A stretch of DNA of 64,000 nt from assembly GCA_009746045.1 (NCBI GenBank), contig RPFO01000225.1, positions 1,634,454-1,698,453 on the forward strand, given 5' to 3'. Under the pieces are notes generated by a model. The model was not told the origin of the DNA and ran no database searches. It saw nothing but the letters and a program-made list of their open reading frames with translations. The position numbers and the translations under genes are program-made. Shown here in pieces: positions 14,601-39,499 of the stretch. Each line of letters begins with the position of its first letter. Position 1 is the first letter of the stretch. The DNA is from Mesostigma viride. Lineage: Eukaryota; Streptophyta; Mesostigmatophyceae; Mesostigmatales; Mesostigmataceae.

Positions 14601-17600
14601 ACAGAGGGGGAGAAAGGGACAGAATGAGGGGTCGGGGAGAGATGAAAATTGTGAAGGGGGCAGGGGTGAGACCGGAACAGGGCACATGCCCAAGCAGCCT
14701 CCGTCCCCAAGTGCCACTACACCCCTCCTGTGTCATTCCTACACTACAACCACTCCCATCGCTGTGCTACTCACGTCTGCTTGTCGGTGGGTGTCTGCTT
14801 GCTGCCCTGCACCGTTCCCTCCCATCCGCTTGATAAACCACGTACGCCACCCCATCGCCAGGCGGCACCACGTCACTATACCATCACTATACCACTCACA
14901 TCTCCTTGTCGGTGGGGATGTACTCGTTGAGCGCCCGCAGTGCGCGCTTGACGTGCTCGATAGAGCTGTCCAGGTTGCCGCCGCTGATGTAAGCGTATGC
15001 AATGCGGCTGGGGGGGGGCGGGGCAAGAAGGGGGCCGACAGGGATGGGGCGCATGCACGCCGCACAGGGGTGCACACAAGTTGGGCACATCCATGGGTGA
15101 GTGGAAGACATGGGCGATGTAAGGGGTGGATCCATCCATGCAGCGCCCTCTTTTCCATGAGTTTAGAGCAGAGTACAAGAGAGGGGGTGCAGAGGTATTA
15201 CAGGCATGGGCAACCGCGTGTAGGGAACATCTTTCATCGTAAAGAAGCAGCTCTGTGGGTGGATCGCCTGCCAGGCCCCTGTGATCCCATGGCCCACCTC
15301 GAGCTGCCACGTCAGCACACGGAGACATGCCGAGTTTTCCTGGGCCTTTTGGGCCTTGTCCGCCATCTCCTCCCCCCTCCCCTGCCCCGGCCCCCCTCAT
15401 CCCCGACATTAGGTCCTCAGTGGCATCATCAGCGTGGCCTGGGTTGTCTAGGCATGCTTTCGTGCGCCAGCATCGTGCCATGTCCTTGCACCCCACCCCG
15501 CCCACTCACCATGCCTCCTGCCCCCTGTGCCCACCCCTTGCCCAACAGCGGACGCACCGTTCCCACATGGCGCGCCTGCTGGGGTTGATGAGGTGCGCGT
15601 CGTTCTCTCCGTCGCCCGTCTTGCTGCTGACCACCGCGTAGCCCAGCGCCACCGCCTCCTTGTAGTACTTGATCTGCCACGGGGGGGGAAGGCGCAGGGG
15701 ACCGAAACAACCACACGAAGTCCACCGCCGGACAAGGGGCAGAAAGGCAGGAATAAGGCAGGGCAGGGGCATGCATTTGGTGTGAGCGGCCATCACAGTG
15801 GGTGGTGATCAGCGCTTTGCTCACCGGCGGATCCGTCGGCCATCCGTGGCAGGGAGATACGGGGCCTGCTGAGATATTTTATACCTTTTTAAGTGCCCAG
15901 CGCGGCTCCGGCCAGCGGGCTGGCCTTTGATCGTGGCCGGTGCGGCGGATGTTGTGGTAATAGCGAACTTGGTAGTACCTACTCATAACAATAATAGCAA
16001 CTGGTCGGGATTCGCCGGCCACCGGCTACGTGGATTGTTGCCGGCGCTGCGCTGGCTGTGGGGGAAAGCCAAAATGAAGCGCTCGTGATGATGGGGACGG
16101 TGAAATGCACGCGTGTGTGCCGGTGTCAGAGAGCCTGGATTGGTATTCCAGATAAGGCTGCCCCCTGCAAACCATTCACGCATGAATCACACAGTGGCAC
16201 ACCAGCGATGCCCCATGCCTTATGGGGCAGCCAGCCTGGACATCCATGACGTCCGTCTGGCGCGCCAGCAACGTGGCTGCTCGAGGGACAGCGCCATGCG
16301 CATGTGCTGCCATCAGGCCCCCTCACTGCGCGCCAATGCTGCCCTTTACTCCCGTGGTAAAATGGTGTACTTTTTATTCACCACGGTAGAGAGTTGGTCG
16401 CATACAAACAGTTGCTTCCTGCCCTCTACGCACTGCGTGCGACGGAGGTACCCTCTACTCACCGTGGTGGAGTGCTGCCCTCGGCTCACCGCTAAAAGTG
16501 TTTCTTCTTCTTCTCCCTCCACTCACCGCGGTGGAGTGCTGGCCGTACGTATAAACAGCGCATGCTGCCCTCGGCTCACCGCGAAACCATGTTTCTACTT
16601 CCCGCGCACTCACCGCGGTGGAGTGCTGGCCGTACTTGTGCAGCGCGTCCTCGGCCGCCTTCTCCCAGTGGTAGATCGCGTTCTCCACCAGGTCGCTCTC
16701 CACATCCTCCACGTCCTTGCACGCCTTGGTGTAGTGGTACGCCACGTTGGCGTAGGGCACGTCGCAGCCCTCGGACATGTGGTACAGCTTGAGCGCGCAC
16801 TCCTTGTGGATGATGCGCTGCTGGCCCGTGGGCATGATGTCGTAGATGACCTCGCGGATCGTGTTGGTGGTGAAGTGGTAGATGCCCTTGCCGTCCTCGC
16901 GGCGCCGCGTGATCAGGTTGAGCTTCTCCAGCTCGGCAAGCGCCTCCGCCACCTCCTTCTCGCGCTCGTGGATGTCGCCCATGCCCGTGCCGCTGCCCCC
17001 GCCCTCCCCGCGCGAAAGCACGGTGAAGAGCACCTCCTTGAGCAGCTGGCCGCTGAAGCTGTTGCCGATCACACTTGCCACCTGGGGGGGGGGGGGAACG
17101 GAGGCAGAGCCATGGGAGGAAGGGGCAGCCAAAGGTAGAACCGCACAAGCTTGAGGACTACACAGACCATGCACAGCCCTGGAGAGGACCACGCTCAACC
17201 ACTCGTGCGGAGAGTGCCTTGCCCAGATATTGATAGCAAGTACGCCTGTGCGTTGCGCGAGAGGTAGAAACTCGCAGGGAGAGGCAAAGCCTGGCCCACC
17301 TTCCCCTTGCCCAGTCACGCGCGCAGCCCAAAGCTCGCCCAACGACAGGCATCCCCATGCATTCCCTGCCCCACCGCCCTCGTCCCCTTGTGTGGTGTGC
17401 GCTCTTCCGTTTCTCACTTTGCGCAGCATGCACTTCTGGTGGCCCTCACAGTAAGCAGCATGTATGTCTCGTCGTCCTCACCTTGAGCAGCAGCACCACG
17501 TTCATGGGCAGCTGGTCGATGCGGCAGGTGATGAGCGCCTTGAGCGACTGAGATACCGGGTTGTCTCTGGCCTCCGTCACGCTGTCGTTGATCACGTACC

Positions 17601-20600
17601 CCTCCGCGCTCTCCGTGACCGCGCTCTTGGACAGCAGCGATACCGCCATCTGCTCCGCAAACAGCGGCTGCCCCCCCGTGGTCTTGTAGATGTTGCGCAG
17701 CGTGGCGTCAGAGATGAAAACCCGGTGCTTGGCCGTGCCCAGAGCGCCGGCCACCCGCTGCAGCACCAGCGCGTGCGTGTCGGCTTCGGACAGCTCCGTC
17801 AGCGTGGTCAGCGTGGCCATGCGCCGCACCGCGATGTACTCAGGCAGGCCATGCTCCATTGGGCGACTCGTCACGATGATCACGCACCTACAGGGAAGGG
17901 GGGGTGGGGGTGCAGCCCCGGCCAGGCAAGGATGGGCGCATCCACATGATTGGGCAATCGGCATAGGTTAGTGCTGGGGAATGGGGGGCCACATCGGTCG
18001 ACAGGGGTGCATGGCAGGTGCCCTGTGGACAGTTGTGCAATGCTGCGCTGAGCGGAAGATGAGGCCACAAGCCCTCGCGTGTATTGATGGAAGGCTTTCT
18101 TTCAACCCACCGGCCCGCTTGTAACGATACCACCAGGCTAGCCACATACAGGCATACAGGGAACGTTGGCGAACAAGAGGATATGCATGGACACACAGTC
18201 GTCCCCATGCCGACATCGGTTGTGGGGGGTGGGCACGCACCTGTAGTTGGGCGTGGAGACCAGCTGGCGCAGCAGCGTCCAGGAGAGTGGGTCGAACGCG
18301 TGCGCGTCCTCCACAATGATGACACAGGGGGAGGAGAGCAGTGTCGTCACCAGCCGCTTGAGCAGCAGGCAGATCTTCTCGGCGCGCACCTCGCTTGAGA
18401 GGGGCAGCTTGGACCCCTCGTGCGCGCTGGTGTTGGATACGCCGCTGCTGCCGCCCGTGTGCGAGCCGCCCGACCCAGGGGGGTGCAGCCCGCCGTAGTG
18501 GCCCGCCACCATGGAGTTGCCCGAGGGCCCGACCTGAAGCCCCCGCAGCAGCGCTTCCGACGCACCGCTCCCAAAGCGCGTGCGCAGCGGCATGTCGCCG
18601 GTGAGCAGCGAGCGGACGCCGAGGTGCATGTTGCCCGAGATGGATGCGCGCTGTGGGTGCGGGTGGGACCCTGAACGGCTCTTGCTGCCCAGCAGGTCGG
18701 CCATCGGGAACATGTGGGGGGACTCGGAGCGCCCGGTCTTGCCCGCGCCGGACGTGTAGCTCTGGCCCTTGGCCGGCAGGTGCAGCAGGCCCCCGTTGGT
18801 GGACCCATAGGAGTCCTCACCCAGAAGCGCGTTGCCGGCCTCCGTGTCCTGGTACACAGGGGGGGGCCAGCTAGTGTCCAGGGAGCCCTGCCGCGCCATG
18901 TGCGCTCGGCTGTTGGGGCTCATGTGCGCGCTGCCACCAAGCACGCCGCTCATGGACACGTCGACGATGCCGCTGCTAGAGGTGTGGAGCGAGGAGCCCG
19001 AGGTCACGCGCGTGTGGTGGTCATCGCTGGGGTCCGCCCCCCCCTCCAGGATGCCGCGCATGTTCTTGTGCGACTCGTTCGAGAACGCATCGCTGTTGAG
19101 GGAACTGAACGCATTGGCGCTGCCAGACCATGACGCGGGCGTGCCGGTTCCCGTGCCTGCCTCCTTAATGTCCAACCCCAGGATGTCGTTGAGCAACACC
19201 GCCCACTTCTGCAGCTTGGTGCCCAGCAGCGCCATCACGCGCTCGGTGCGCTGCCGCGCACTCACCTTCATGTCGCTCTTGAGCAGGTCCAGGATGAGCC
19301 GCCGCCAGGTGGCCAGCACGTCCGGCCGCATCTGCATCGACCCGCCCACCAGCTCGCAGCGAACCTTGTGCGCGAGCAGCGTGGCGTGCAGGCACTCGAC
19401 CAGCTTGGTTTTGCCCATGCCCGGCTGGCCCTCGATGATGACCACGCTGGAGCCGCCCGCCCCCCCTCCCTTCATCATGAGCATCACGTTGTCCATGAGG
19501 GACTTGATCTCGGCCTCGCGCCCCACGATGGGGAACTGCTGCTCGGGCGCGCGTGACCAGGACTCGTACAGTGGGTGGTCGTCGTAGGGTGGCGACGACA
19601 CAAACTTGGCCTTGACCTTGATGCCCACCGGCCGGAACACGGAGATGGGAATGGACTTGCCCTTCACGGTAATCTCCGGCAGCTTCTCGTAGTGGAACAC
19701 CTCCTTGCTCTCCTCGTACGTCATCTTGTCCGTCAGCACGCCCTCGTTGGCCAGCTTCATGAGCCGTGCGCTCAGGTTGATGCTGTCGCCGTACACGGTG
19801 AACTCGCAGCGGCGGCGGCTGCCCACGGTGGCACAAAAGAGCTTGCCGGTGGTCACGCCCACCGCGCCTCGCTCCCCCGCGTCGCGCAGGCGGCAGCAGA
19901 TGGCAGTGGCGGCGCTGATCCCGCGCACGGGATCGTCTTCATGCGTGTTGCGCAGCACGCCAAACGTGCAGATCATCAGGAAGCCTGCGTGCGCGTGCGG
20001 CAAGGGAGGGCACAGCGGGCATGGGACGGACAAGGGGGTCACAAGGGAGCGGTGAAAAGGTGCAGCGACCAGCAGGAGCATGCAGGAGCAGGTGAGCGTG
20101 CGAGGGGCAAAGGCATGGGGGGTGGGGTAGGGGAGCAGGGCTTACACAATGGATACGAACTAGATGAGGGAGCACTTCCCAGCCCTGAGCACCAAGCAGC
20201 TCTATTGTTGGAAACTAGACAGATCTGCATGCGAAGCATTCACTCAAGAACATATGCAGTATGCAGGAAATTACTTCCAACGCCACTTAACGATCTTTTA
20301 GCTGCAACAGACCGAGTTTTTAAATTGGCCTGGTGAAAGCAAGGTGCATCATGCCATGCCACCCGGCAAATCACGAAGACCAATAAGCTCAAATGAGGTT
20401 TCCGACGCAAGCCTGAAAATGCTTTTCCACACAGCCTTGCAGTCAGGTGGCACTTGCCATGCCATTCACAGCGCCCCGCCTGTGGAGACTACCACAAGCG
20501 TACCAGGTTTCAGCGCAGCACCAGCCCCATCTGCTGTGCATGGTGAGCACAAGCAAAGTCCTCGCGTACAGTACGCGCACTGCAGGGTGGACATAGACAC

Positions 20601-23600
20601 GGAGGGGATGCTCAACGAGGCCATGGGGAGCGGAGGTGGCCAGAATGATGGTGGTTGGTTGGATCCGCACCAGGCAGCAACGCACATGGCAAATGGGAGA
20701 GGAGCCGCACCTGCGCGCTTGCATGCCAAGGCCCACAATTCTCATCGACCCGCCAGCTCAACCCTCTCAACCATCCGCATCTCATGGCTTCAGGCCTCAC
20801 CTTTCTCATCCATGCACCATCCGCATCTCATGGCTTCAGGCCTCACCTTTCTCATCCACGCACCATCCGCATCTCATGGCTTCAGGCCTCACCTTTCTCA
20901 TCCACGCACCATCCGCATCTCATGGCTTCAGGCCTCACCTTTCTCATCCACGCACCATCCGCATCTCATGGCTTCAGGCCTCACCTTTCTCATCCACGCA
21001 CCATCCGCATCTCATGGCTTCAGGCCTCACCTTTCTCATCCACGCACCATCCGCATCTCATGGCTTCAGGCCTCACCTTTCTCATCCACGCACCATCCGC
21101 ATCTCATGGCTTCAGGCCTCACCTTTCTCATCCATGCACCATCCGCATCTCATGGCTTCAGGCCTCACCTTTCTCATCCATGCACCATCCGCATCTCATG
21201 GCTTCAGGCCTCACCTTTCTCATCCATGCACCATCCGCATCTCATGGCTTCAGGTCTCACCTTTCTCATCCATGCACCATCCGCATCTCATGGCTTCAGG
21301 CCTCACCTTTCTCATCCATGCACCATCCGCATCTCATGGCTTCAGGCCTCACCTTTCTCATCCACGCACCATCCGCATCTCATGGCTTCAGGCCTCACCT
21401 TTCTCATCCACGCACCATCCGCATCTCATGGCTTCAGGCCTCACCTTTCTCATCCATGCACCATCCGCATCTCATGGCTTCAGGCCTCACCTTTCTCATC
21501 CACGCACCATCCGCATCTCATGGCTTCAGGCCTCACCTTTCTCATCCACGCACCATCCGCATCTCATGGCTTCAGGCCTCACCTTTCTCATCCATGCACC
21601 ATCCGCATCTCATGGCTTCAGGCCTCACCTTTCTCATCCACGCACCATCCGCATCTCATGGCTTCAGGCCTCACCTTTCTCATCCACGCACCATCCACAT
21701 CTCATGGCTTCAGGCCTCACCTTTCTCATCCATGCACCATCCGCATCTCATGGCTTCAGGCCTCACCTTTCTCATCCATGCACCATCCGCATCTCATGGC
21801 TTCAGGCCTCACCTTTCTCATCCACGCACCATCCGCATCTCATGGCTTCAGGCCTCACCTTTCTCATCCATGCACCATCCGCATCTCATGGCTTCAGGCC
21901 TCACCTTTCTCATCCATGCGGAACAGCACACACCTTTCTCATCCATGCGGAACTGCGTGAGGCTGCCCTCGTAGCGCTTGAGCTCCTGCTGCACCACCAG
22001 CATGGCCGCCTGCACGCGCGTCAGCTGGTCCTGGTCCGGCCCGATGCGGCTGAGCGAGGGCAGGCCCAGGAAGAGCACGGTGATGCGGCGGATCTCCGAC
22101 AGAAAGTGCTCCTGCCCGCCACGCAGCCGGCTGCAGATTGCATCCGGCACAAACGTGCGCAGGATGGAGACGGCCTTGGGCAGGAAGTGGGGGGGAATCG
22201 TCGTAAGCATCTCCTTGCGAGAGAGCTGCTCGCCCGTGGCGGTCACTGTCGCTGTCACGCGGTTGAGGCGCACGTTGCCCCCCTTGAGCCGCTCCCCTTC
22301 GCACTGGTCCCCAATCAGCGCCCAGCCCTCCGGGGACAGGATCACGTCACCGCTCTTGGCCTCGCTGTCCGCATGGCTGATCTGGGCGATCGGGTGCCGC
22401 ACTGCGCGCCCGTCGCTGCTGATGGACATGGAACCCGTGCGACCGCGCGCGGGGCGCCCACCCCCCGGCATATCGCGGCCCGAGTCCTCCCCATCCGTTA
22501 TGTCGGGCGTCTCGGCCAGGGTGGGCTGGTCGCCCAGCAGGAACTCCCACCGTGGCTTGCGCGAGGGCATCTCGGTGAGCCCCCCCACACGGAACGCACA
22601 CACCTCGCCCACCCCAATCATGATCTTCAGCGTGAGCGTGAGGGGGCCCGCGCTGTTGGCGTCCGGCAAGCCAGGGCTGACCGCCAGGCCCCCGTTCATG
22701 CCAAACTTTTTGTTGTTCTTGCGGAAGGATCGGCTGCTGCTGCTGGGCTCCCGCCCGCGCGACCCGCCCTTGTCCTTGCCGCTCCCGTAGTGGTTGTCCG
22801 CGTTCATGCTGGCACCCACAGCGTCGCCCCCTTGCCCCGACCGGCTCTTGAGGATGGCCACCAGCTGTGTCATCGTGATGGGCTTCATCAGGAAGCCGTC
22901 CATGCCGGCCTCAAGGCACATCTGCTTCGCCTGGTCCTCGATCTGCGCGGTGACGGCCGATATGTGCGCAGTGCACCCCTGCGCGCGCAGCTGCCGCGTG
23001 GATTCGTACCCGTCCATGATGGGCATGAGCAGGTCCATGAACACGATGTGGTAGTTGGTCTTCTTGCACATCTGAACCGCCTCGTCGCCGTTGACCGCGT
23101 AGCCCACCTCACAGCCGAGCCGCATGAGCATCTTGCCCAGCACCACACGGTTGAGCATGATGTCATCGACGACGAGCACTTTCTGCCCCCCCATGGGTGT
23201 GTGGAACGTGCGCATGTGCGCGCCCGTGTCGGTGTCACAACTTGAGTAGTCGGTGCTTGCGTAGCCGCCGCCCATCCCATAGCCGCCGAGCTTGGGGCAG
23301 TAGGCACCTAGGTTTGAGACAAGGTCAAACCCGCACGCCGCCGCGCGCAGCACGCACGCCGACTCCGGCTGTCGCGTGCACAGGGAAGGCGGCGGGGGGG
23401 TGGGGGGGCACCCACACCGATGACCACACCGATGCGATAGGGGGGAGAGGAGCAAGGCAGGGACACCATTGGGGTGTCAAGAGAGGCCTTGATCATCACG
23501 GCCAAACAGCAACGATACTGTGGAGCATGCAACATACAGCTGGGAAATGCGGGGGCCATGATGCCAACGAGCAGCTTCTAAAACCCATGGTGGCAAAGTG

Positions 23601-26600
23601 TGCACGCTTGCTAGACTGATGCCCCCACGGCAAGAAGGCCACGCCTGCTCTAACCATCACGGTATGTGGCAGAGCCGTGGGACAAGAAGCGTGCCATAAG
23701 GGCGCCGACGACGATAAGGGAGACGAGGGAAACGGGGGGGCGAGGGCAAGAAGAAGTGAGAAACCGGTGGGGAGGAAATGGAGGGGGGCAGGGGAGGAAA
23801 GGAGGGGGGCCGAGGCGAGGGGAGGGGGCAGAAGAATGAGGAAATATAAACTGCATTGTGTTGCACAACCAGCTCTGGACCAACCCACAAAGGAACGAGC
23901 CAGCACAATACTGGTATAAGAATTCAGTTCGTCAGAATCTGATCTCGGGGTGTCATCCGCCGCATGGTGCTGCCTGTTTGCCTCCATCTTTGACATGGCC
24001 CAGAATGGGCGGGCCCATTACCAGCACAGCCATGATGAGAGGGCACCGCCATGATGAGAGGGCACCTGCTGCGCTCACCTCTGCATTCTCTTTATTCAAG
24101 GGGAACGCCACAATCATCGAGTCGCCCGCAAACTGCACCGCACAGAGGACACCCAGGCAAGCAAGGAGGGTGGGTGGGAGAATTTTCTGTGAGCAAGACG
24201 TGAGGAGACAGGGCCCCCCTAGACAAATATGGCCAGGCGGATGTAGGAGGGAGCACAAGGCATCAACGCGGATGGTCACGCCCAGAGCTCAGATGCCAGG
24301 AAAGGCCCTCCAACTTTCGCCCGTGCCCTTTCAAACGGCGGCAGGCAAGTTGCAACGCCCCGGCTGCACCATGGGACCACAGGGCGCTTCACCAGAGGAC
24401 TGTGCACGCGCAGGCATGGGGCAGCGCCACATTTAGCATGGGTAACACCGCCCAAACACCATACAGCCTACCATGGCACTTTGCCCAGGGCAGATGGCAG
24501 GCAACAACAGTGCCACAGGTGTGCAAGCACATGCCCTGGCTGCTTCCAGTTGCCGCTCCACAACATTACGCCAGCACTAGGTGCACGCCGCCAGCGCTCC
24601 GCTGGTCCTTAACTCCCGTACAGAGGTCATCACTCCTTGGGTGGCTGCAGGAGAAGAGCAGGCGATGGGGCCACCACATCAGGATGGGGGGGGCGCACTG
24701 CTCGCGTGCAGCCGACACGGCAGTGCCTGGTGAATGCGGACCAGGCATTCCCGTGCAGCGCTATTGAGTGAACTAGGCCGCCCCATGCCCACATCTCTTT
24801 GCGTGTTGTAAAGCCCATCCCACCCCTACCCGACTGCATGCCTGCGCAGTATTCCTAAAGTTGGAGATGCACACACACAACCCCCTCTCTGTTGCCATGT
24901 GGCCTTTGCCCAGGGCCCCGCTCACCTTGATGACATCTCCCCCGTGCTCACCTTGATGACATCTCCCCCGTGCTCACCTTGATGACATCTCCCCCGTGCT
25001 CACCTTGATGACATCTCCCCCGTGCTCACCTTGATGACATCTCCCCCGTGCTCACCTTGATGACATCTCCCCCGTGCTCACCTTGATGACATCTCCCCCG
25101 TGCTCACCTTGATGACATCTCCCCCGTGCTCACCTTGATGACATCTCCCCCGTGCTCACCTTGATGCCATCTCCCCCGTACTCACCTTGATGACATCTCC
25201 CCCGTGCTCACCTTGATGCCATCTCCCCCGTACTCACCTTGATGACATCTCCCCCGTGCTCACCTTGATGCCATCTCCCCCGTGCTCACCTTGATGCCAT
25301 CTCCCCCGTGCTCACCTTGATGACATCTCCCCCGTGCTCACCTTGATGCCATCTCCCCCGTACTCACCTTGATGACATCTCCCCCGTGCTCACCTTGATG
25401 CCATCTCCCCCGTGCTCACCTTGATGACATCTCCCCCGTGCTCACCTTGATGACATCTCCCCCGTGCTCACCTTGATGCCATCTCCCCCGTACTCACCTT
25501 GATGACATCTCCCCCGTGCTCACATTGATGACATCTCCCCCGCGCTCACCTTGATGACATCTCCCCCGTGCTCACATTGATGACATCTCCCCCGTGCTCA
25601 CCTTGATGACATCTCCCCCGTGCTCACCTTGATGCCATCTCCCCCGTGCTCACCTTGATGCCATCTCCCCCGTGCTCACCTTGATGACATCTCCCCCGCG
25701 CTCACCTTGATGCCATCTCCCCCGTGCTCACCTTGATGACATCTCCCCCGTACTCACCTTGATGACATCTCCCCCGTACTCACCTTGATGCCATCTCCCC
25801 CGTGCTCACCTTGATGACATCTCCCCCGTGCTCACCTTGATGACATCTCCCCCGTGCTCACCTTGATGACATCTCCCCCGTGCTCACCTTGATGACATCT
25901 CCCCCGTGCTCACCTTGATGACATCTCCCCCGTGCTCACCTTGATGACATCTCCCCCGTGCTCACCTTGATGACATCTCCCCCGTACTCACCTTGATGAC
26001 ATCTCCCCCGTGCTCACCTTGATGACATCTCCCCGTGCTCACCTTGATGACATCTCCCCCGTACTCACCTTGATGACATCTCCCCCGTGCTCACCTTGAT
26101 GACATCTCCCCCGTGCTCACCTTGATGACATCTCCCCCGTGCTAACCTTGATGACATCTCCCCCGTGCTCACCTTGATGCCATCTCCCCCGTGCTCACCT
26201 TGATGACATCTCCCCCGTGCTCACCTTGATGACATCTCCCCCGTGCTAACCTTGATGACATCTCCCCCGTGCTCACCTTGATGCCATCTCCCCCGTACTC
26301 ACCTTGATGACATCTCCCCCGTGCTCACCTTGATGCCATCTCCCCCGTACTCACCTTGATGACATCTCCCCCGTGCTCACCTTGATGACATCTCCCCCGT
26401 GCTCACCTTGATGACATCTACCCCGTGCTCACCTTGATGACATCTCCCCCATGCTCACCTTGATGACATCTCCCCCGTGCTCACCTTGATGACATCTGCC
26501 CCGTGCTCACCTTGATGACATCTCCCCCGTGCTCACCTTGATGACATTTCCCCCGTGCTCACCTTGATGCCATCTCCCCCGTACTCACCTTGATGCCATC

Positions 26601-29600
26601 TCCCCCGTGCTCACCTTGATGACATCTCCCCCGTGCTCACCTTGATGACATCTCCCCCGCGCTCACCTTGATGACATCTCCCCCGTACTCACCTTGATGA
26701 CATCTCCCCCGTGCTCACCTTGATGACATCTCCCCCGTACTCACCTTGATGCCATCTCCCCCGCGCTCACCTTGATGACATCTCCCCCGTGCTCACCTTG
26801 ATGCCATCTCCCCCGCGCTCACCTTGATGACATCTCCCCCGTGCTCACCTTGATGACATCTCCCCCGTGCTCACCTTGATGCCATCTCCCCCGTGCTCAC
26901 CTTGATGCCATCTCCCCCGTGCTCACCTTGATGACATCTCCCCCGTGCTCACCTTGATGCCATCTCCCCCGTGCTCACCTTGATGCCATCTCCCCCGTGC
27001 TCACCTTGATGACATCTCCCCCGTGCTCACCTTGATGACATCTCCCCCGTGCTCACCTTGATGCCATCTCCCCCGTGCTCACCTTGATGCCATCTCCCCC
27101 GTGCTCACCTTGATGCCATCTCCCCCGTGCTCACCTTGATGACATCTCCCCCGTGCTCACCTTGATGACATCTCCCCCGTGCTCACCATGATGCCATCTC
27201 CCCCGTGCTCACCATGATGCCATCTCCCCCGTGCTCACCTTGATGCCATCTCCCCCGTGCTCACCTTGATGACATCTCCCCCGTGCTCACCTTGATGACA
27301 TCTCCCCCGTGCTCACCATGATGCCATCTCCCCCGTGCTCACCTTGATGACATCTCCCCCGTGCTCACCTTGATGACATCTCCCCCGTGCTCACCATGAT
27401 GACATCTCCCCCGTACTCACCTTGATGACATCTCCCCCGTGCTCACATTGATGACATCTCCCCCGTGCTCACCTTGATGACATCTCCCCCGTGCTCACCT
27501 TGATGACATCTCCCCCGTGCTCACCTTGATGACATCTCCCCCGTACTCACCTTGATGCCATCTCCCCCGTACTCACCTTGATGACATCTCCCCCGTACTC
27601 ACCTTGATGACATCTCCCCCGTACTCACCTTGATGACATCTCCCCCGTGCTCACATTGATGACATCTCCCCCGTGCTCACCTTGATGACATCTCCCCCGT
27701 GCTCACCTTGATGACATCTCCCCCGTGCTCACCTTGATGACATCTCCCCCGTACTCACCTTGATGCCATCTCCCCCGTACTCACCTTGATGACATCTCCC
27801 CCGTGCTCACCTTGATGACATCTCCCCCGTACTCACCTTGATGACATCTCCCCCGTGCTCACCTTGATGACATCTCCCCCGTACTCACCTTGATGACATC
27901 TCCCCCGTGCTCACCTTGATGACATCTCCCCCGTGCTCACCTTGATGACATCTCCCCCGTGCTCACCTTGATGACATCTCCCCCGTGCTCACCTTGATGA
28001 CATCTCCCCCGTGCTCACATTGATGACATCTCCCCCGTACTCACCTTGATGCCATCTCCCCCGTGCTCACCTTGATGCCATCTCCCCCGTGCTCACCTTG
28101 ATGACATCTCCCCCGTGCTCACCTTGATGACATCTCCCCCGTGCTCACCTTGATGACATCTCCCCCGTGCTCACCTTGATGACATCTCCCCCGTGCTCAC
28201 CTTGATGCCATCTCCCCCGTGCTCACCTTGATGACATCTCCCCCGTGCTCACCTTGATGCCATCTCCCCCGTGCTCACCATGATGACATCTCTCCCGTAC
28301 TCACCTTGATGCCATCTCCCCCGTGCTCACCTTGATGACATCTCCCCCGTGCTCACCTTGATGCCATCTCCCCCGTGCTCACCTTGATGACATCCCCCCC
28401 GTGCTCACCTTGATGACATCTCCCCCGTACTCCAGCACCATCTCGATCGCCTGCGCACAGGGATTACGCGGAAGCAAGCACAGGGACCACAGCCAAGTAG
28501 GCACAGGGACCCCGGGCAACAGGCAACAGGCAACCGGCACGTTAGGTGGGGTGCAGCACGCGTGCATGCTCACATCATGCCACCAACCTACCAGGCAACC
28601 AACCCACCCAGGTGTGTACCCAGCAGGCTTCGTGGCACACCACCCACGTGTATAGACACATAACATTGCAAGCAACCCTAGAAAACTACAGCCCTGCCCC
28701 AGTAGCAAAACCCCATCAGAGAAGTGCCAGCTGTCGTGCACAGTGCACACCGCGCCCATGCCCACAGTTGCGCGCACATCCGGAGCTGGCCACCACGGTG
28801 AGGGGCGCGCCCGCTGTGCGAACGCCTGCCTCGTGGACGGTATGGTCACGCGCTGGGCCCACGCCAAGAGGCGGCTGCCTGTCATGCTGAGTCCCCATGC
28901 CCGTGTGCATTACCCATGCGGCACAGATCCCTCGTGCCAAGCACCTTCGTAGGTGCACACCTACCCCTCCATGCCACTTGTCTGCATCGCAGCCCCACCA
29001 TGGGAAGTGGATTCAACATCAGCCCAGCACCTGTTTCATCTACTCCTCCCCACACTAATCGCTCATGCCACGCACCTCCCCAAGATAGTCGTTCATGCAC
29101 GCGCGCTCACCTCCCCACAAGAGCCATTCATGCACGCGCACTCACCTCCCCGAAATAGTCGTTCATGCACGCTGTCAGCTCCTCCACAAGCTCAGTCCCA
29201 CGCTTGGACATGAGCGCGCGCTCCGTCAGCGGTGTGAAGCCTGTGATGTCAGCGATCAGCACCGCCGCCGTCAGGTTCTCCATCGCCGGGCCATTGATAT
29301 CTGCAAGCGCGCCATGTGGCGGCATGAGTAGAGTGCGTGGCAGCATGAAGCGCGCACATGGCGGCAGAAAGGCGTCAGGCACGCGTGGGGCAAGAAGTTT
29401 GCGTGAGGTGCAAACTTCTGCGTGCGTGCCAATTACTAGTTATTGATGCCAGGGATCCCCTGGTCCACCCCAGCAGGTGCGTGGGATGGCAAAGCACGGT
29501 ATACCTCAACCATGAGTGGTGCGGATGCGCGATCCAAAAGGCAGGGGGGTGCGGCGAGCGCAGGGAACCAGATGCACTGCGCTAGACCGCCAGCACAAAT

Positions 29601-30423
29601 GGCAGGGAACCGTGGGAGGGGCCACAGCACAATACCATGCTATACCGTGCTCTACCGTGCCATACTGTGCTCTACCGTGCCATACCCTGCTCTACCGTGC
29701 TCTACCGTGCTCTACCGTGCTCTACCGTGCTCTACCGTGCTCTACTGTGCTCTACCGTGCTCTATCGTGCTCTATCGTGCTCTACCGTGCTCTACCGCGC
29801 CATACTGTGCTCTACCGTGCTGTACCGTGGCCCGGGGATGGAATGAATGCTCCATCCTGCCCGGCAACACCACCACCTTAGGTGCATCCACGCTGGGTTA
29901 GCATTCCATGGCAAGGGTCCACAACCAATCTGCATCCAGATGTACTGGGCCCTGGTTGGCGGGGATGCAGCTCATGGTCCCTAGCAGTCTGAAGTCTATG
30001 TCTAGCAACAGGAATCATGACTAAATGGAACAGGCCAAGTATATATTCAAGGGCAGGCGTGTAAACAAGGGTCTCACCTGCCCCACTTTCCATGGCTTTA
30101 ACCACCGTTTGGACCAAAAGCTGCGGAAGGAAGGGCTGGAGGCGCTGCATCTCCCGGGAAATATCTGGCTCGGAGCCACCATTGCTAGCAAATATGGCGC
30201 TTCCTTCACCACTGGTGTTTGGATCAAGCCCCTCGAGGCCCTCCGTCCCATGTGATCCTTTCTTCGGATGTGGCGGGCTGTTGGTGGACAGTCCTTCCGC
30301 ATCGGACTCCTCGTCTGTGCCGTATACCCTCCCATTTAATAAAGTTGAGTCATTAAAACTACGACTACCCCCAGTAATATCTTCGCTTCTCCTCTCATCA
30401 GCAGCCGATCCCGCTGACTCCAT
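11672..30423 (-). CDS. sAC-type adenylyl cyclase with embedded receiver domain (3' end not found)
   Basis: Makes cAMP from ATP, by family. Exons (minus): 30423-30078, 29300-29146, 28450-28409, 24132-24079, 23368-21934, 19984-18241, 17887-17482, 17081-16614, 15673-15558, 15007-14900, 14354-14141, 13285-12436, 11792-11672. All junctions are GT-AG and phases agree across all 13, giving about 2,019 codons; no stop codon was reached. C1 keeps both metal Asp (LIADITGF, D133; FAGDS, D185) and the adenine-selecting Lys (K181). A receiver domain (about 260-375) interrupts C1 before β-strand LTLKIMIGVG. C2 (about 600-800) lacks metal Asp but keeps FTVYG (T740) and NLSAR (N747, R751), as in mammalian ADCY10. 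A P-loop NTPase follows (GQPGMGKT, 863-870; VIIVEDAHAFD about 1231), with a Ser/Gly-rich insert between, then helical TPR-like repeats to the end. No membrane segment is seen. The ATG at 30423 is the only upstream in-frame ATG. Similarity to sAC is strong; function is inferred. Confidence 0.85.
12060..12265 (-). repeat. Intronic degenerate ~32-bp repeat
   Basis: Roughly six diverged units of the type CGTGCATGACACAGGCAAGG, with AGATGTGGC or TGAAGTGGC between, lie in the intron between cyclase exons 12 and 13. Unlike the neighbouring arrays, this one does not contain an exon end or splice donor. Confidence 0.7.
16350..16640 (-). repeat. Duplicated exon 8 end plus splice donor (3 copies)
   Basis: The end of cyclase exon 8 (encoding KYGQHSTA) and its donor ACCGCG|GTGAGT occur at the true junction 16614/16613. 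They recur in the intron ending at 16527 and, shorter, at 16463 (ACCACG|GTGAGT); a weaker remnant lies near 16366. Spacing is irregular (87 and 64 bp). The duplicated piece includes at least 20 exon bases (TACGGCCAGCACTCCACCGC). Confidence 0.8.
20770..21933 (-). repeat. 46-bp array built on the exon 5 splice donor
   Basis: About 25 tandem copies of a 46-bp unit lie in the intron after cyclase exon 5 (minus strand). Each contains ATGGATGAGAAAG|GTGAGG, the last 13 exon bases with a donor. The true exon end at 21934 uses GTGTGT; a partial duplicate 29 bp downstream has the canonical GTGAGG, and the regular array follows. Units vary at one or two positions (CATGCACC or CACGCACC). Because 46 is not a multiple of three, use of a downstream copy would usually shift the reading frame. 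Confidence 0.9.
22853..23182 (-). other. CheY-like receiver domain nested in cyclase C1
   Basis: Within exon 5, residues about 262-371 form a full receiver: VLVVDDIMLNR (acidic pair D267/D268), IVFMDLLMPIMDG (phospho-acceptor D311), ISAVTA (switch T339) and FLMKPI (K361). All canonical phosphotransfer residues are present. Upstream in the same exon is the C1 helix (LRAAACGFDLVSNLGAYCPKL with a Gly/Ser linker after it). About 70 residues downstream the C1 fold resumes with LTLKIMIGVGEV and RWEFLLGD. The domain looks like hybrid-kinase receivers of plants and fungi. Confidence 0.9.
24136..24920 (-). other. Cyclase intron 3, non-repetitive part
   Basis: Intron sequence between exon 4 (ending upstream at 24132) and the 26-bp donor array. 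No additional exon, RNA gene or element is recognised. Confidence 0.5.
24921..28430 (-). repeat. ~135-copy 26-bp array of exon 3 end plus splice donor
   Basis: The 42-base exon 3 ends GGGGGAGATGTCATCAAG and its donor is GTGAGCAC. This exon end plus donor is repeated about 135 times with a 26-bp period, filling most of the 4.3-kb intron down to exon 4. Common variants are GATGGCATC for GATGTCATC and GTGAGTAC for GTGAGCAC; rare units have GTTAGC, TGTGAG or a one-base deletion (near 26032). Nearly every unit keeps a consensus donor (AAG|GTGAG). Reading on from exon 3 reaches a stop in the second unit. Confidence 0.95.
29041..29180 (-). repeat. Four-copy 35-bp repeat of exon 2 end plus donor
   Basis: The end of cyclase exon 2 (TGCATGAACGACTATTTCGG, then GGAG|GTGAGTGCGC) is followed by diverging copies with junction-like positions at 29146 (true), 29111, 29076 and about 29041. 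Period is 35 bp; donors degrade from GTGAG through GTGCG to GGAGT. It appears older than the long arrays. Confidence 0.8.
29635..29835 (-). repeat. 10-bp array in cyclase intron 1
   Basis: About 19 copies of a decamer reading CTACCGTGCT on the plus strand (GCACGGTAGA in the sense of the gene), with CATACTGTGC variants. It lies mid-intron between exons 1 and 2 and does not match either splice junction. Confidence 0.85.
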
Positions 30424-31632: not shown

Positions 31633-33113
31633 TAGGGTTGTACCGAATAGCGTTTTGGCTTGCCGAATCGGATACTCGGACCAGGGGGGTGCCCCGAACC
31701 CGATGCCGAATATATTAAAAATATAATTACTTACAGCAGAGTGATGAAATCACTCAAACCAAAGCAAACGCCCAGCTATAAACCTATATACAGAGCCATG
31801 TCAAAGCTCTATACTACGATAAGACCAATGGAAACGCCTAACGGGAGGAACCTAATAGCCCTGCTGCACCGCAAAATCAGCCCGCGTACGGCGGAGCATG
31901 ATGTCAGCCATGGCCCGAGTCAGCGCCACCGACAGGCGCTGACGCCAATATGACGTCCAGGTCCGCGCCGACCATGGGGCCCGCTGGCCCTCCAGGTCCA
32001 GCCGGTCCTCCCGGAGCCGGCAACACTCCTTGAAGAAGGCGGAGGTCAGGGGCCCCATGGCCCCAAACTCCTCCAGGACAAAGGGCACCACACGATGGTG
32101 CCCGACGTCGCCGTAGGCCAGGAGCTTGGCCCGCTCCGCCCGGTCCGCCGTGTAACCTGCCGTGAGGGAGGCCCCAGCCACGTGGCTAAGAGCCAAGGGC
32201 CGCGCCACCGAAACGTCAATAAGCAGATGCCGGCCACCCCCCTCAAAGTCCAGCACCACGATGTCAGGCCGGTGGTTGGGGGAATAGAAGGCAGCGCCAT
32301 CCGCATCCTCGGACCGGATGTTCGCGTGGGGGAAAACCGACCGAATCATGGCGAGCACCACCGTCAGGAGGACAGTGTGCAAATACAAATACCAATTCTG
32401 ATTCTGTTGGCCCCCCATGCAGGCAAGGTAGTGAGTCCCCGTGGGATCCAGCGGCTGCCCACAGCTACCGGCTGACCACAAGGCCGCCCGGCCGGAACAA
32501 GAGGCTGCGGGGCAAATAGCTGGTGCCGGAGCGAATATGTTTGGAGCCTCCCGATACCGATACCGAATATGTTCGGAGCTGAAGGGCCCTTCCCGAATCG
32601 AACACCGAATAGTTCTCCGAACTATTCGGACGCCGATCGAATAATGACGACAGTAGCTACTATAACGTATTAGGTAGACAACTTGTATCATTTATATTAA
32701 TGAGACTTATATTAATTATTTTGTATCAATTATATATTGAGATACACTTAGTGTTTAATACTTAGACGAGCACAGTTGCCTTCCCTGCATAGTGCATTCA
32801 GCTTTTGGGCGTTGGCCTAACTCTTGAGTCGGCGGAGGCATGACCGCGCCAGCTGGTGAGTGGAGGCTGGAGGCTGCGCCGCCCGCTGGTAGGGGTACTA
32901 CTATTCGATATTCGGAACTACGAATATATTCGTCGAATAGTAGGGTGTTCCGATTTCGATACCGAACATATTCGGAAGTAGAGCTTGCCTCCCGATACCG
33001 ATACCGAATATGTTCAGACGGACAGACCGTTCGCCGTATACTGAACATATTCGGTGTTCGGTTCGGTATTCGGGGGATATTCGGTATTCGGAACACTATT
33101 CGGTACAACCCTA
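31633..33113. mobile_element. hAT-like non-autonomous element with 8-bp target duplication
   Basis: Perfect 18-bp inverted termini, TAGGGTTGTACCGAATAG, lie at 31633-31650 and 33096-33113, flanked by TGAGGTAT (31625-31632 and 33114-33121). An 8-bp duplication and a TAGGG terminus fit the hAT superfamily. Subterminal DNA is rich in repeated ATTCGG/CCGAAT and CCGATACCGAATATG motifs in both orientations. No transposase is encoded; the only coding remnant is a LINE fragment inserted inside. Confidence 0.85.
31707..32535 (-). pseudogene. LINE C-terminal fragment nested in the hAT-like element
   Basis: A minus-strand open frame of about 230 codons (to a stop near 31852) carries the same features as the relic at 5997-7289: GTHY, RPDIVVLDFEGGG, HLLIDVSVARPL, FVLEEFGAMGPLTSAFFKECC and YWRQRLSVALTR, ending ADFAVQQGY. 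It is followed by the family 3' end (about 31712-31780). The direct repeat CGAATAT at both edges (about 31704 and 32529) may be its target duplication, which would place this insertion after the hAT-like element. Confidence 0.7.
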
Positions 33114-34102: not shown

Positions 34103-37100
34103 ATGACCGGTAGCGTTTTCCCCAGCAGCAAGCCGCCGGAAGAACATAAGCATGGTATGTGATGTCAAACCTGCGTTCGGTTCTTGTTCTCCACCACTTC
34201 AAGGAACTTGTGCAGACATGTGCAGGCTGTTAAAATAGCTGCTGCTCGCTCACCTTACTGTATTGTGCTCCGTTTACTGCCGTTGCTGCATCAGAACGCC
34301 TACATGCGTCGTTTTTCGTTGGATCAGTCGCTGGGGTGGCCGGTGATTTTGCCATGCATCCGTTGGACACCGTCAAAACAAGGCTGCAAGTCCAAGCAGC
34401 GATCGTCCAGAATCGACAGACGCAGCCCCAAGCACCGGTGCGCTCGTTGCTGCGACCAAAACTAAGAGGGTTACCTCTTAATCTCGAACTGAACCCTTTT
34501 GGTGCAACTGCCTCATTCAATTGATGATTTGCTCAGTGCGCAACCATCAAATTTTCCAGGGCATAGTTGCTAATACTTTAGGGACGCATTTACGGGGAGG
34601 TCGTGAAGGATTGGGGAGGGCGGCTGTTCCTCATCCAGGGCATTATCGTAGCTCCCAGTTTCTATCTTTGCGACTGCCCCTCTCGTAGTGCTGATGATAA
34701 GTAGGAGCATTACGATCACGAAAGTGATGATTTCATGCGCCCCATATGATGTCATGCACCCCATATGATGTCATGCGCCCCATTGCTCCCCTGTGCATGG
34801 CCACGGCGCTCATGCGTGTGTGCGGGTGTTGGCCCGTGCGCAGCGCTATCGCGGTGTGTTTGACGGCATCCGAAGAATCATGGCGGAGGAGGGCCTCAAA
34901 GGTATGCACTACTGTTTAAAAATGAAGGCATAATACTGCTATATCATGGCGGACGAGGGCCTCATGCAACCTTATCTAATTGAAGGTACATATCAGCATA
35001 GTTTCATATATCACACTCGGGGCACTTGTGTTTTATACACCATCGCTCAGACGCTCACAGGACGGATGATGCGGCCTGACATGCCACAGGGAGTGGTGAT
35101 GCCCAGTTCGTCTCCCTAGGTGTGGTTCCCACATGCATGCTGCTCTCTTCAGGGAATCAGGTGGCATAGGGTACCGGCTGCCTAGTGTACCGACCTGCCA
35201 TCGCCGTCACACCACAATGGGGCGTGCAGGCGGTCCAGGTTGGATGACACGCACACGGTCAAGTACATGCATGGACTAGGGGGTGGTGTGCGCCCTGATG
35301 GGTGTGGTGGGAAGGCCAAGGACCTGAAGGAAGGTTAGTGTTGAGGTGTCAGGTGGTACCCCGTGTGTCAAGGTGTCCAGGTGGCCCCGTGGAGAGAGGG
35401 GGGGAGGGAGGGAGGGAGGGAGGGAGGGAGGGAGGGAGGGAGGGAGGAGGGAGGGAGGGAGGGAGGAGGGAGGGAGGGAGGGAGGGAGGGAGGGAGGGAG
35501 GGAGGGAGGGAGGGAGGGAGGAGGGAGGGAGGGAGGGAGGAGGGAGGGAGGGAGGAGGGAGGGAGGGAGGGAGGGAGGGAGGGAGGGAGGGAGGAGGGAG
35601 GGAGGGAGGGAGGGAGGGAGGAGGAGGAGGGAGGGAGGGAGGGAGGGAGGGAGGGAGGGAGGGAGGGAGGGAGGGAGGGAGGGAGGGAGGGAGGAGGGAG
35701 GGAGGGAGGGAGGGAGGGAGGGAGGGAGGGAGGGAGGGAGGGAGGGAGGAGGGAGGGAGGGAGGGAGGGAGGAGGAGGGAGGGAGGAGGAAGGGAGGGAG
35801 GAGGAGGGAGAGGAGGGAGGGAGGAGGGAGGGAGGGAGGGAGGGAGGGAGGGAGGGAGGGAGGGAGGGAGGGAGGGAGGGAGGGAGGGAGGGAGGGAGGG
35901 AGGGAGGGAGGGAGGAGGGAGGGAGGAGGGAGAGGAGGGGAGGGAGGGAGGGAGGGAGGAGGAGGAGGGAGGGAGGGAGGGGGAGGGAGGGAGCGAGGGA
36001 GGAGGGAGCGAGGGAGCGAGGGAGCGAGGGAGGGAGGGAGGGAGGGAGGGAGGGAGGAGGGGGGAGCGAGGGAGCGAGGGAGGAGGGAGGGAGGGAGGGA
36101 GGGAGGGAGGGAGGGAGGGAGGGAGGGAGGGAGGAGGGAGGGAGGGAGGGAGGGAGGGAGGGAGGAGGGAGGAGGGAGGGAGGAGGGAGGGAGGGAGGGA
36201 GGGAGGGAGGGAGGGAGGGAGGGAGGGAGGGAGGGAGGAGAGGGAGGGAGGGAGGAGGAGGGAGGGAGGGAGGGAGGGAGGGAGGGAGGGAGGGAGGGAG
36301 GGAGGAGGGAGGGAGGGAGGGAGGGAGGAGGGAGGGAGGGAGGGAGGGAGGGAGGGAGGGAGGGAGGGAGGGGGAGGGAGGGAGGGAGGGAGGGAGAGGA
36401 GGGGGAGGGAGGGAGGGAGGGAGGGAGGGAGGGAGGGAGGAGGGAGGGAGGAGGGAGGGAGGGAGGGAGGGAGGGAGGGAGGGAGGAGGGAGGAGGGAGG
36501 GAGGGAGGGAGGAGGGAGGAGGGAGGGAGGGAGGGAGGGAGGGAGGGAGGAGGGAGGGAGGGAGGGAGGGAGGGAGGGAGGGAGGGAGGGAGGGAGGGAG
36601 GGAGGAGGGAGGGAGGGAGGGAGGGAGGAGGGAGGGAGGGAGGGAGGAGGGAGGGAGGGAGGAGGGGGAGGGAGGGAGGGAGGGAGGGAGGAGGGAGGGA
36701 GGGAGGGAGGGAGGGAGGGAGGGAGGGAGGGAGGGAGGGAGAGAGAGAGGGAGGGAGGGAGTACAAATGGATGCGCATGCGGCCACCAGATGGCATGGAC
36801 CCGTCGGCTCATGTGCGACTTATGATCCCATATGTGATGATAAGATGATCCGTTGTTGCCGCTCATGATATTCTACATGTGATGATGAGGTGATCCGTCG
36901 TTGTAGCATCCTGCAATGCTCGCCAGTTGAACCTTCAACCCAACCGTGCAACTGAGGGCAAGTGGGCATTCATCCTGGACTTCCTTTCATGAGGTTTATG
37001 AAATGAAGAGACTACTATAGGCCTATTTGCTCATGGCTCACTGTACGTGGTGCTGCAAGGCACTCTGTGCCGCCCCGAGGCCTTGCCCCACTGTTGCGCG

Positions 37101-39499
37101 CAAGCATTCGCGACGTTGACCGCTGCCTGCAGTTTCTACACCTATGTGCGCTGTGGGGTCCTTGGTATGTCCGCCGCGCGCCACGTGCCGGATGCAGGCT
37201 TCTACAAGGGCGGCAGCGCCACCGTGGCAGGCGCCGCATCCTCGATGGCCATCCACTTTGGCACGTACGAGTGGATGAAGACGCTGGGGGAGGGGTACCG
37301 TGGCGACCATCCGCGCATGGTCCACATGGCGGCAGGGGCCACAGGTGCGGACCAGGGGCCACAGGGGGCAGGCCTTGTGGGCCAGCCCTTTGCCATTCTG
37401 TGGCGTGATCTTGCTTGCTTGCCAGGCTGTGCTGCTGGCCATGGCTATCCTGTGCCGGGGTGCTGGCATGGCAGGCGAAGAGGCATGCCTGTTTCTACCA
37501 CACCTCACCTGGTGTGCCAGTATCTGGTCCTGCAGGAAAAAAGCTCGTTGTCTCGTTACAGCAAGGACAGGGGTGTGCGGGCATGCCGGTGTTTTCAAAG
37601 GGGAGTAGGGACAGTGCCGACCCACCAGCTGCTATCATGCCACTAAATTGTGTAGATAGCTGCCCTGCGATCTGTCAACTCACTGTCAAGGGCCCACACT
37701 TTGGCCTACCTTTTGACACAACCTTGGGCTGGGCGTTGCTCGCCGTGCCATGGCACAGCTGCGGCTCCCTCGGTCAGCCCTCGAGTGGACGGTCGCGCGG
37801 TGGGTGGACGGTCACGCAGTGGCAGGTTTGATGTGACATGGCATCTGCGGCACAGGCCAGTGCTGCATAGCCGGAGCCCTGAGCATTGGTGCCCGCGCCA
37901 GGTGTCACCTGCATGCGTGGCATGCAGAATGGTAATAGTGATGCAAAAATTGCCTCCGCGCTCACAATCCACCCATGTGTGGTCCCGCACAATACGACCC
38001 CCCCCCCCCCCCCGGCAGGCGAGCTGTTTGGCTCGGTGACGTACGTCCCCTTTGAGGTGGTCAAGCAGCGCATGCAGTCACAGCGGTCGGGCCGCGGCCT
38101 TGCGTACGGCAGCAGCACACAGCACTACTACCACGGCAGCTGGCACGCGCTGCGCTCCGTGTACGGCGCGCAGGGCATGCGCGGGCTGTACACAGGCTAC
38201 TGGTCCACGCTGGCGAGGGACATCCCCTTTGCGGGCATCCAGGTGAGTGGCGGGCGGGGTGGGGCGGTGGGCTTGTGCATCCCCTGGGAAAGTGACGTGG
38301 CTTAGTGGGTGGCATGAGCAATAGATGCTGCTGGCCATGTGCTGGATGCATGTTGCTCCTGTTGTGTGATAGCTTGCGCGCACCCTGTCTTGTTCTTGCT
38401 TGTGCTAACTTTTGCTGCACTGTATGTGGCCTCCCTTTATGTTGTCTTTTGGCCCTGCTGCACGCCGCCAGTTCATGCTGTATGAGGAGCTTAAGGCGCT
38501 GAGTGCACGCTCGCTGGGGGTGCCCATCTCAAGTATCGAGGCCACCCCCTACTGCTGCTTCTTTGTGGGCGGATTGGCAGGAGGTAGGCCACCCCCTACT
38601 GCTGCTTCCTTGTCAGTGTGTGGCAAGTACCAGGTGGCCGTCATTTGCTGCTAATTCATGCCAGTACGGCTCAACTTGCAAGGGATCGTGGGGTCTCTTT
38701 GCATGTGCTCGGTTTCTTGTAGCAGCTATCAGCGCAGCAGGGACACAGCACCATACTACAGGGCCGAACCGCCACATAATCTTGGAACAACCCCCACAAC
38801 AACGTGCATCAGGCAACGTGGCCAAGGGGTCTTGACTCCACTTTGCGCATGATGGTGATAGCGGCAGGAAGCGCGACCATCATGCAATGCACGCCTGCAG
38901 TGGTGGGCAGTGCCCAACTACATGACTAATGTGAGGCTCAGCTCCGGTGAGTTTGAGGCAAATTAGACTGCTGCTCTAGTGCCCTGTCCTGTCGTGACAT
39001 TTCACAGATATTTTTTACGAAGCAGGAGGGAAGCAGCAGCTTTCGCATTCGTGTAAACAGTGGTAGGCTGGTCATGCAAAGCCGTCTTTTAGGGCCTAGA
39101 TATCCAGGTGCCAGGTGTGCCGTTGCCTATGTGATTTGGGTATGGGCCTGGGGGATGATTAAATGGCACTCGGTGGCTGAAATATTAGCTTATCCATGAC
39201 CATGGCCATGGCCTCCTTTGCCTCCTCTTCCTTGTCGCATGTGGGCTGCAGCCATCAGCGGGGTGGTCACCACGCCTTTAGACTGTGTGAAGACCCGGCT
39301 GCAAGTACAAGGCCATGGCATCAATGCGGTGCATACAGGGGGTGTGCTATCCACGCTGTGGCAAATGGCAGTGTCTGGCGGCATCAGCAGCTTGATGTGC
39401 GGGGCCACACCGCGGGGCGTGTGGTACCTCTGCCAATCTGCCATCCAGTTCATGGTGTACGAGTCAATTATCAGCCGGTCTGGTCACCTCTTTGCGTAA
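34103..39499 (+). CDS. Mitochondrial carrier family protein (Mme1/YMR166C-like)
   Basis: An SLC25-type inner-membrane carrier. Exons: 34103-34154, 34328-34437, 34844-34901, 37198-37344, 38019-38242, 38472-38583, 39252-39499; all GT-AG with matching phases, giving 316 residues, the normal size for the family. Three ~100-residue repeats each carry the carrier signature: [11 protein letters not shown] (P29), [11 protein letters not shown] (P133) and [11 protein letters not shown] (P243). Repeat ends include [12 protein letters not shown] and [21 protein letters not shown]. The combination [24 protein letters not shown] and STLARDIPF recalls yeast Mme1 (YMR166C, reported as a magnesium exporter) and, less closely, S-adenosylmethionine carriers; substrate is not determined. 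The ATG at 34103 opens a 17-residue exon ([17 protein letters not shown]) whose phase fits exon 2. Intron 3 carries a 1.36-kb GGGA tract. Confidence 0.88.
35398..36761 (+). repeat. 1.36-kb (GGGA)n purine tract
   Basis: Almost pure GGGAGGGA with interspersed GGAGGA steps and a few GAGCGA interruptions near 35990-36080 fills most of carrier intron 3. The transcribed-strand copy is all pyrimidine. It is open in all six frames, but the Gly/Glu/Arg or Pro/Ser/Leu translations are low-complexity artefacts. Confidence 0.95.

Follow-up and report, generated by a model that had tools for sequence, protein, structure and literature searches.

A putative soluble-type adenylyl cyclase of Mesostigma viride with a receiver domain in its C1 catalytic domain

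Background

Can a receiver domain of the two-component type be accommodated within the catalytic fold of an adenylyl cyclase, and could its phosphorylation then control the synthesis of cyclic AMP (cAMP)? This question is raised by a gene of the single-celled green alga Mesostigma viride for an adenylyl cyclase of the soluble, ADCY10-like type, situated on the minus strand of a stretch of 64,000 nucleotides (contig RPFO01000225.1, positions 1,634,454 to 1,698,453) that is called the window hereafter and in which all coordinates are given. Two-component phosphorelays and cAMP are usually linked by separate domains in a row. The cyanobacterial CyaC has receivers and a class III adenylyl cyclase in one protein, with the receivers outside the cyclase fold, and in the algal histidine-kinase rhodopsins (HKRs) the receiver is a separate domain preceding the cyclase. 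The Mesostigma protein does not conform to this type, its receiver being placed between the C1a and C1b parts of the first catalytic domain and not beside the cyclase fold. Regulation of the cyclase by phosphorylation of the receiver is considered to be the best reading, with a rough probability of 0.55.

Receiver domain nested within C1

The spliced model of the gene comprises nine exons, from 30423 down to 15558, with an open frame of 1588 residues and with GT at the start and AG at the end of all eight introns. It encodes C1 and C2, catalytic domains of class III, one after the other, as in the soluble adenylyl cyclases (sAC). The following elements, all on the minus strand, have been located; pLDDT stands for the predicted local distance difference test score of AlphaFold2 (AF2).

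23294..23368, minus strand, helix α3 of C1, residues 200-224 (by alignment; boundary set by eye)
23192..23293, minus strand, linker 1 of 34 residues (low pLDDT)
22841..23191, minus strand, receiver domain, residues 259-375 (Pfam E 2.2e-24; AF2 pLDDT 91.5; fold matches)
23033-23035, minus strand, codon of the phospho-acceptor Asp311, within the receiver
22643..22840, minus strand, linker 2 of 66 residues (low pLDDT)
22286..22642, minus strand, second part of C1 from β4 (LTLKIMIGVGEV ... SGDVILSPEGW; alignment, profiles)
21934..22213, minus strand, first part of C2 (ITVLFLG ... RMDEKG; match to ADCY10 in the Protein Data Bank (PDB), profiles)
19617..19984, minus strand, remaining C2 in exon 6 with Thr740, Asn747 and Arg751 (PDB match, residues, profiles)

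Profiles of C1a, C1b and C2 were built from nine relatives, the Mesostigma protein being left out. They place C1a at residues 109-204 (E 5.9e-34), C1b at residues 438-496 and 522-553 (E 3.1e-10 and 7.5e-7) and C2 at residues 613-794 (E 7.7e-63). The second C1 part carries a 44-residue low-complexity insert of its own. A receiver profile of 80 proteins, which includes the Mesostigma model and its public counterpart P0001, locates the receiver at 256-380, between C1a and C1b. Other cyclase profiles, of ten rows, include the Mesostigma protein, and its E-values against them are favoured by construction. Against the nesting, Pfam by itself at E up to 0.01 recognises in exon 5 the receiver but no cyclase half. 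The best match among solved structures is ADCY10 (4clf, E 1.3e-26), covering residues 120-197 and 585-788. Alignment of a short-loop relative, P0104, to ADCY10 sets the insertion point after α3 and before β4.

A first-pass annotation, made from the DNA letters, had proposed a receiver nested in C1, and the C1a, receiver, C1b order given by the profiles, with the receiver inside one uninterrupted exon, bears this out. A receiver belonging to a separate gene would have spoken against that proposal; exon 5 is a single open frame that contains α3, the receiver, the rest of C1 and the start of C2. A receiver on its own, easily skipped exon has been set aside, as the domain is internal to exon 5 of the spliced model. 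We are therefore confident that the architecture is real at the level of sequence, and the protein is described as an active-looking sAC-type cyclase with a receiver in the α3-β4 loop of C1. In the open-access literature, represented mostly by titles and the first lines of abstracts, we found no description of a cyclase fold with a receiver inside it.

Gene structure

The exons of the model are as follows.

30078..30423, minus strand, exon 1, N-terminus, residues 1-115 of the model; LQPFLPQLLVQTVVK at its end can be aligned with relatives
29146..29300, minus strand, exon 2, β1 of C1, LIADITGF, metal Asp133
28409..28450, minus strand, exon 3, GGDVIK of C1, adenine Lys181
24079..24132, minus strand, exon 4, FAGDSMIVAF, metal Asp185
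21934..23368, minus strand, exon 5, α3, receiver, remaining C1 and start of C2 in a single open frame
18241..19984, minus strand, exon 6, remaining C2 and a P-loop ATPase part (AAA_16-like, just under the Pfam cut-off)
17482..17887, minus strand, exon 7 of the spliced model, identical to P0001
16614..17081, minus strand, exon 8 of the spliced model, within the stretch identical to P0001
15558..15673, minus strand, exon 9 of the spliced model; the gene extends past it, as P0001 continues

The motifs reported in the first-pass annotation are all present on the minus strand, and its numbering of D311 is reproduced by the nine-exon model. Its span of 21934..24132 agrees with the start of exon 4 and the end of exon 5. 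LIADITGF and GGDVIK, encoded at 29300-28409 by exons 2 and 3, fall outside this span, and the remaining C2 is in exon 6.

The public model of the same protein, P0001 (jgi Mesvir1 Mv16533-RA.2, 1848 residues), is identical to the spliced model over all the 1402 residues that they have in common, from model residue 187 onward. It starts at Met187 inside exon 4, just past the second metal Asp. Exons 1-3, perhaps missed owing to the 4.3-kb repeat-filled intron 3, are lacking in it, and with them the adenine Lys and the metal Asp of β1. The pieces encoded by exons 1-4 are contiguous in the aligned relatives, and the longer model is supported because these relatives join them without a gap.

It is very unlikely that no such protein exists and that the arrangement has arisen from a wrong gene model, an assembly join or a decaying gene. 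The late start of the public model, in exon 4, and the largely tandem-array nature of introns 3 and 5 would fit such an artefact. Against it, the open frame of exon 5 is unbroken, base use in the receiver is of the coding type (GC of 0.61, 0.33 and 0.91 by codon position), the exon joins recreate residues that are adjacent in relatives, and exons 4-9 are joined in the same way in the public model, with 1402 identical residues, although that model may depend on the same assembly.

Catalytic core and ATPase module

All seven catalytic and substrate positions considered in the alignment (D133, K181, D185, K677, T740, N747 and R751) are kept, their roles being those known from human sAC. Both metal Asp residues and the adenine-specificity Lys (D133, D185, K181) are thus in place, as the first-pass annotation had read them. 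Eight of the nine other aligned rows are the same at every position, and P0214 differs at the Thr. ADCY10 (PDB 4clf, 4oya) shares with the Mesostigma protein the C1-C2 order, the metal Asp pair, the adenine Lys and the Thr, Asn and Arg of C2, but has only the short ETQEWEEG between α3 and β4 of C1 (P0104-4oya alignment).

A P-loop ATPase module follows C2. It matches AAA_16 with E 3.6e-7 (31.3 bits against a curated cut-off of 32.6), P0001 has PF13191 in its precomputed domain annotation, and GQPGMGKT occurs at residue 863. By hand count, the equivalent of human Arg176, the bicarbonate-binding Arg, would be a Ser just before GDVILSP, so that the bicarbonate input may be missing in the Mesostigma protein.

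Relatives and size of the C1 loop

Three protein searches were carried out with candidates of 0.55-1.75 times the query length, about 8000 being scored in each. The best 120 of 867, the best 120 of 286 and 91 proteins (the last with Bryopsis P0002 as query) were examined; the P0002 search did not recover P0001 and cannot show the absence of receiver-bearing relatives. The 316 different proteins listed include 238 with a match to the cyclase profiles and 79 with a receiver, and among them P0001 alone has both. No row named Chlorokybus or Klebsormidium is among the listed proteins; this does not show that such proteins are absent there.

C1a and C1b are separated by a median gap of 20 in the 203 rows that could be measured. 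Twenty rows have a gap of more than 60, among them the Mesostigma model and the chytrid P0294 (gap 95). In a tree of 33 rows (one tree search, some long branches, midpoint root for drawing) the Mesostigma protein is sister to 17 rows, with support of 100/99 for the clade of 18 and 95/93 for the 17. Ten of these sister rows are green algae (Bryopsis 4, Chlamydomonas 3, Trebouxia, Pycnococcus and Pedinophyceae) and the other seven are taken as green by their place in the tree. The sequences establish that the cyclase shares ancestry with these green-algal relatives.

The C1 loop is clearly enlarged in 17 of the 18 clade rows (gap 129-875 residues), the eighteenth being P0233, in which the match to the second part of C1 is doubtful (E 3.7). 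Relatives such as Bryopsis P0002, Trebouxia P0123, Chlamydomonas incerta P0022 and Pycnococcus P0155 have their enlarged loops at the same alignment column as the Mesostigma insertion. In the other 17 rows of the clade, no receiver was detected even with a threshold as permissive as E 10. About 570-1100 residues, of low complexity by eye, are present at the C1 loop of P0022, P0082, P0123 and P0138. The simplest history would be that the loop was enlarged early in the green lineage and the receiver was gained in the Mesostigma line; an earlier gain followed by loss in the chlorophytes is possible.

These loops bear on another explanation, in which the receiver is directed at the downstream ATPase part or at partner proteins and the loop merely tolerates inserts. 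The very different lengths of the 17 enlarged loops are in its favour, as is the scan of four relatives, in which no Pfam family was listed within the loops (P0138 matched no family at all). It is nevertheless judged improbable: the insertion adjoins a regulatory face known in other cyclases, and no contact with the ATPase part was seen, although none was sought.

The receiver and its possible role in cyclase control

The receiver matches Pfam Response_reg (E 2.2e-24) and keeps the acidic pair D267/D268, the phospho-acceptor D311, T339 and K361. AF2 predicts a full (βα)5 fold with a mean pLDDT of 91.5, and the domain is accordingly complete with its phosphorylation residues, as had been claimed for it. 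Twelve of its 14 best fold matches are receivers of hybrid kinases (Chaetomium HK3 and HK6, yeast and Candida SLN1, GacS and PA1611), including SLN1 in complex with the histidine-containing phosphotransfer (HPt) protein Ypd1, and two are EutV. Hybrid-kinase receivers also come first after ADCY10 among the sequence matches in solved structures. In NCBIfam, two sensor kinases and PleD stand first among the best 25 of 90 matches of exon 5, all far under the cut-offs. As the fold-match E-values are nearly equal, the resemblance to hybrid-kinase receivers is to be taken as a tendency.

This resemblance is one point in favour of the main rival to phosphorylation control, namely a passive or intermediary receiver that serves as a phosphate sink or relay from HPt, or as a kinase anchor, and leaves catalysis unchanged. 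The long linkers suit it too, as does the receiver of the hybrid kinase CckA, for which PMC9981736 describes no allosteric change on BeF3 binding. However, Thr339 and the β5 aromatic F358 are present and would permit the usual Thr-aromatic coupling, α4 is predicted to be helical, and by visual comparison with PMC9981736 the stretch SAVTAQIED shows no FATGUY motif of the CckA-type class. We consider a passive receiver rather unlikely, while giving it more weight than the other rivals.

Control of the cyclase by phosphorylation of the receiver could proceed as follows. Hybrid histidine kinases and HPt of Mesostigma would phosphorylate Asp311, the direct phosphate donor being the HPt protein. Two CHASE kinases, one authentic HPt, one type-B and one type-A regulator are reported for Mesostigma in PMC10338860, and the fold matches to hybrid-kinase receivers, SLN1 with Ypd1 among them, also speak for this route. 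The receiver, held on flexible tethers, would dock on or leave the face of C1 formed by α1-α2 and α3-β4, and the change in docking would alter the seating of C1 against C2 and with it, by either activation or inhibition, the rate at which cAMP is made.

Some support by analogy comes from other class III cyclases. In animals Gsα docks between the α1-α2 and α3-β4 loops of C2, and filling of this groove turns C1 and primes the active site, according to PMC2576301. The Mesostigma C1 loop is the homologous place to part of this groove of animal C2. A pseudo-symmetric Giα site on C1 has been proposed, for which docking used the end of α3 as a part (PMC5608429). The receptor-type membrane cyclases of trypanosomes have a 36-residue insert, the Delta-subdomain, at the same α3-β4 loop, which PMC6027212 describes as thought to be allosteric; it consists of two helices and, unlike the Mesostigma insert, contains no receiver. 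In the algal HKRs a response regulator is said to activate the attached guanylyl cyclase (PMC12558739). Here too His-Asp signalling feeds into an algal class III cyclase, which differs from the Mesostigma case in the guanylyl specificity and in having the kinase in the same chain. A tentative proposal would make the α3-β4 loop a control site shared by class III cyclases in general, used by G proteins, the trypanosome insert and the Mesostigma receiver; in Mesostigma a histidine-kinase phosphorelay would through it turn C1 directly against C2 and set cAMP.

Several observations weigh against phosphorylation control, the CckA behaviour cited above among them. The arrangement is found in one species only. 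The AF2 model of P0001 1-612 has a mean pLDDT of 56.8 and a predicted template modelling score (pTM) of 0.41, with a good C2 and no usable C1; P0001 is without β1 and β2. Its residues 146-330, which cover the receiver end, linker 2 and β4, are below 50; low pLDDT is thus a weak sign of linker disorder, because the receiver end and β4 score equally low. The length of the linkers, about 34 and 66 residues with many Gly, Ser and polar side chains, also weakens any direct mechanical coupling.

The first-pass annotation had suggested that phosphorylation of D311 could move strands that shape the active site. The nesting and the receiver residues uphold its premises and the direct pull is less well supported, the loop being apparently not mechanically tight because of the Gly/Ser-rich linkers and the gaps of 129-875 residues in relatives. 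Strand pulling has been set aside as the favoured mechanism on these grounds, and docking on the C1 face beside the insertion point would fit better.

Intron repeats and other features of the window

The exon end together with the 5' splice site is tandemly repeated in four of the eight cyclase introns, at 24920-28432 (intron 3), 20770-21916 (intron 5), 29069-29172 (intron 2) and 16473-16635 (intron 8). Further copies of the donor 20-mers with at most 4 mismatches number 134, 25, 2 and 2 in introns 3, 5, 2 and 8; when each intron was shuffled 20 times the mean was 0. The acceptor 20-mers have no copies in any of the eight introns. No report of tandem donor-site repeats in introns was found among the titles and opening lines of abstracts that were searched. 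A 56-bp unit repeated 16 times at 57190-58093 contains AAAGGGTGAGAAC, donor-like on the plus strand, and is possibly the same phenomenon in another gene.

A mitochondrial carrier family match (PF00153, E 1.6e-9) is found at 34234-34521 on the plus strand, with carrier-like pieces perhaps up to about 39500 by eye; no family matches 38080-38244. A 1.4-kb GGAG array occupies 35391-36761. The 279-codon open frame at 31852-32691 on the minus strand has no Pfam match at E up to 0.1 and gives, by eye, the impression of the end of a retroelement protein.

Implications

The domain organisation described here suggests that two common signalling systems meet within one Mesostigma protein, the receiver belonging to the cyclase core and occupying the loop through which G proteins act in animals. 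The plant-type cyclase CAPE was not detected in Mesostigma, as stated in PMC8115329. If phosphorylation control is true, the protein would be a candidate source of cAMP in an early streptophyte alga and a tractable one for testing how the cyclase halves turn. If phosphorylation does alter activity, different lineages would have brought unrelated regulators to one and the same control point of the cyclases.

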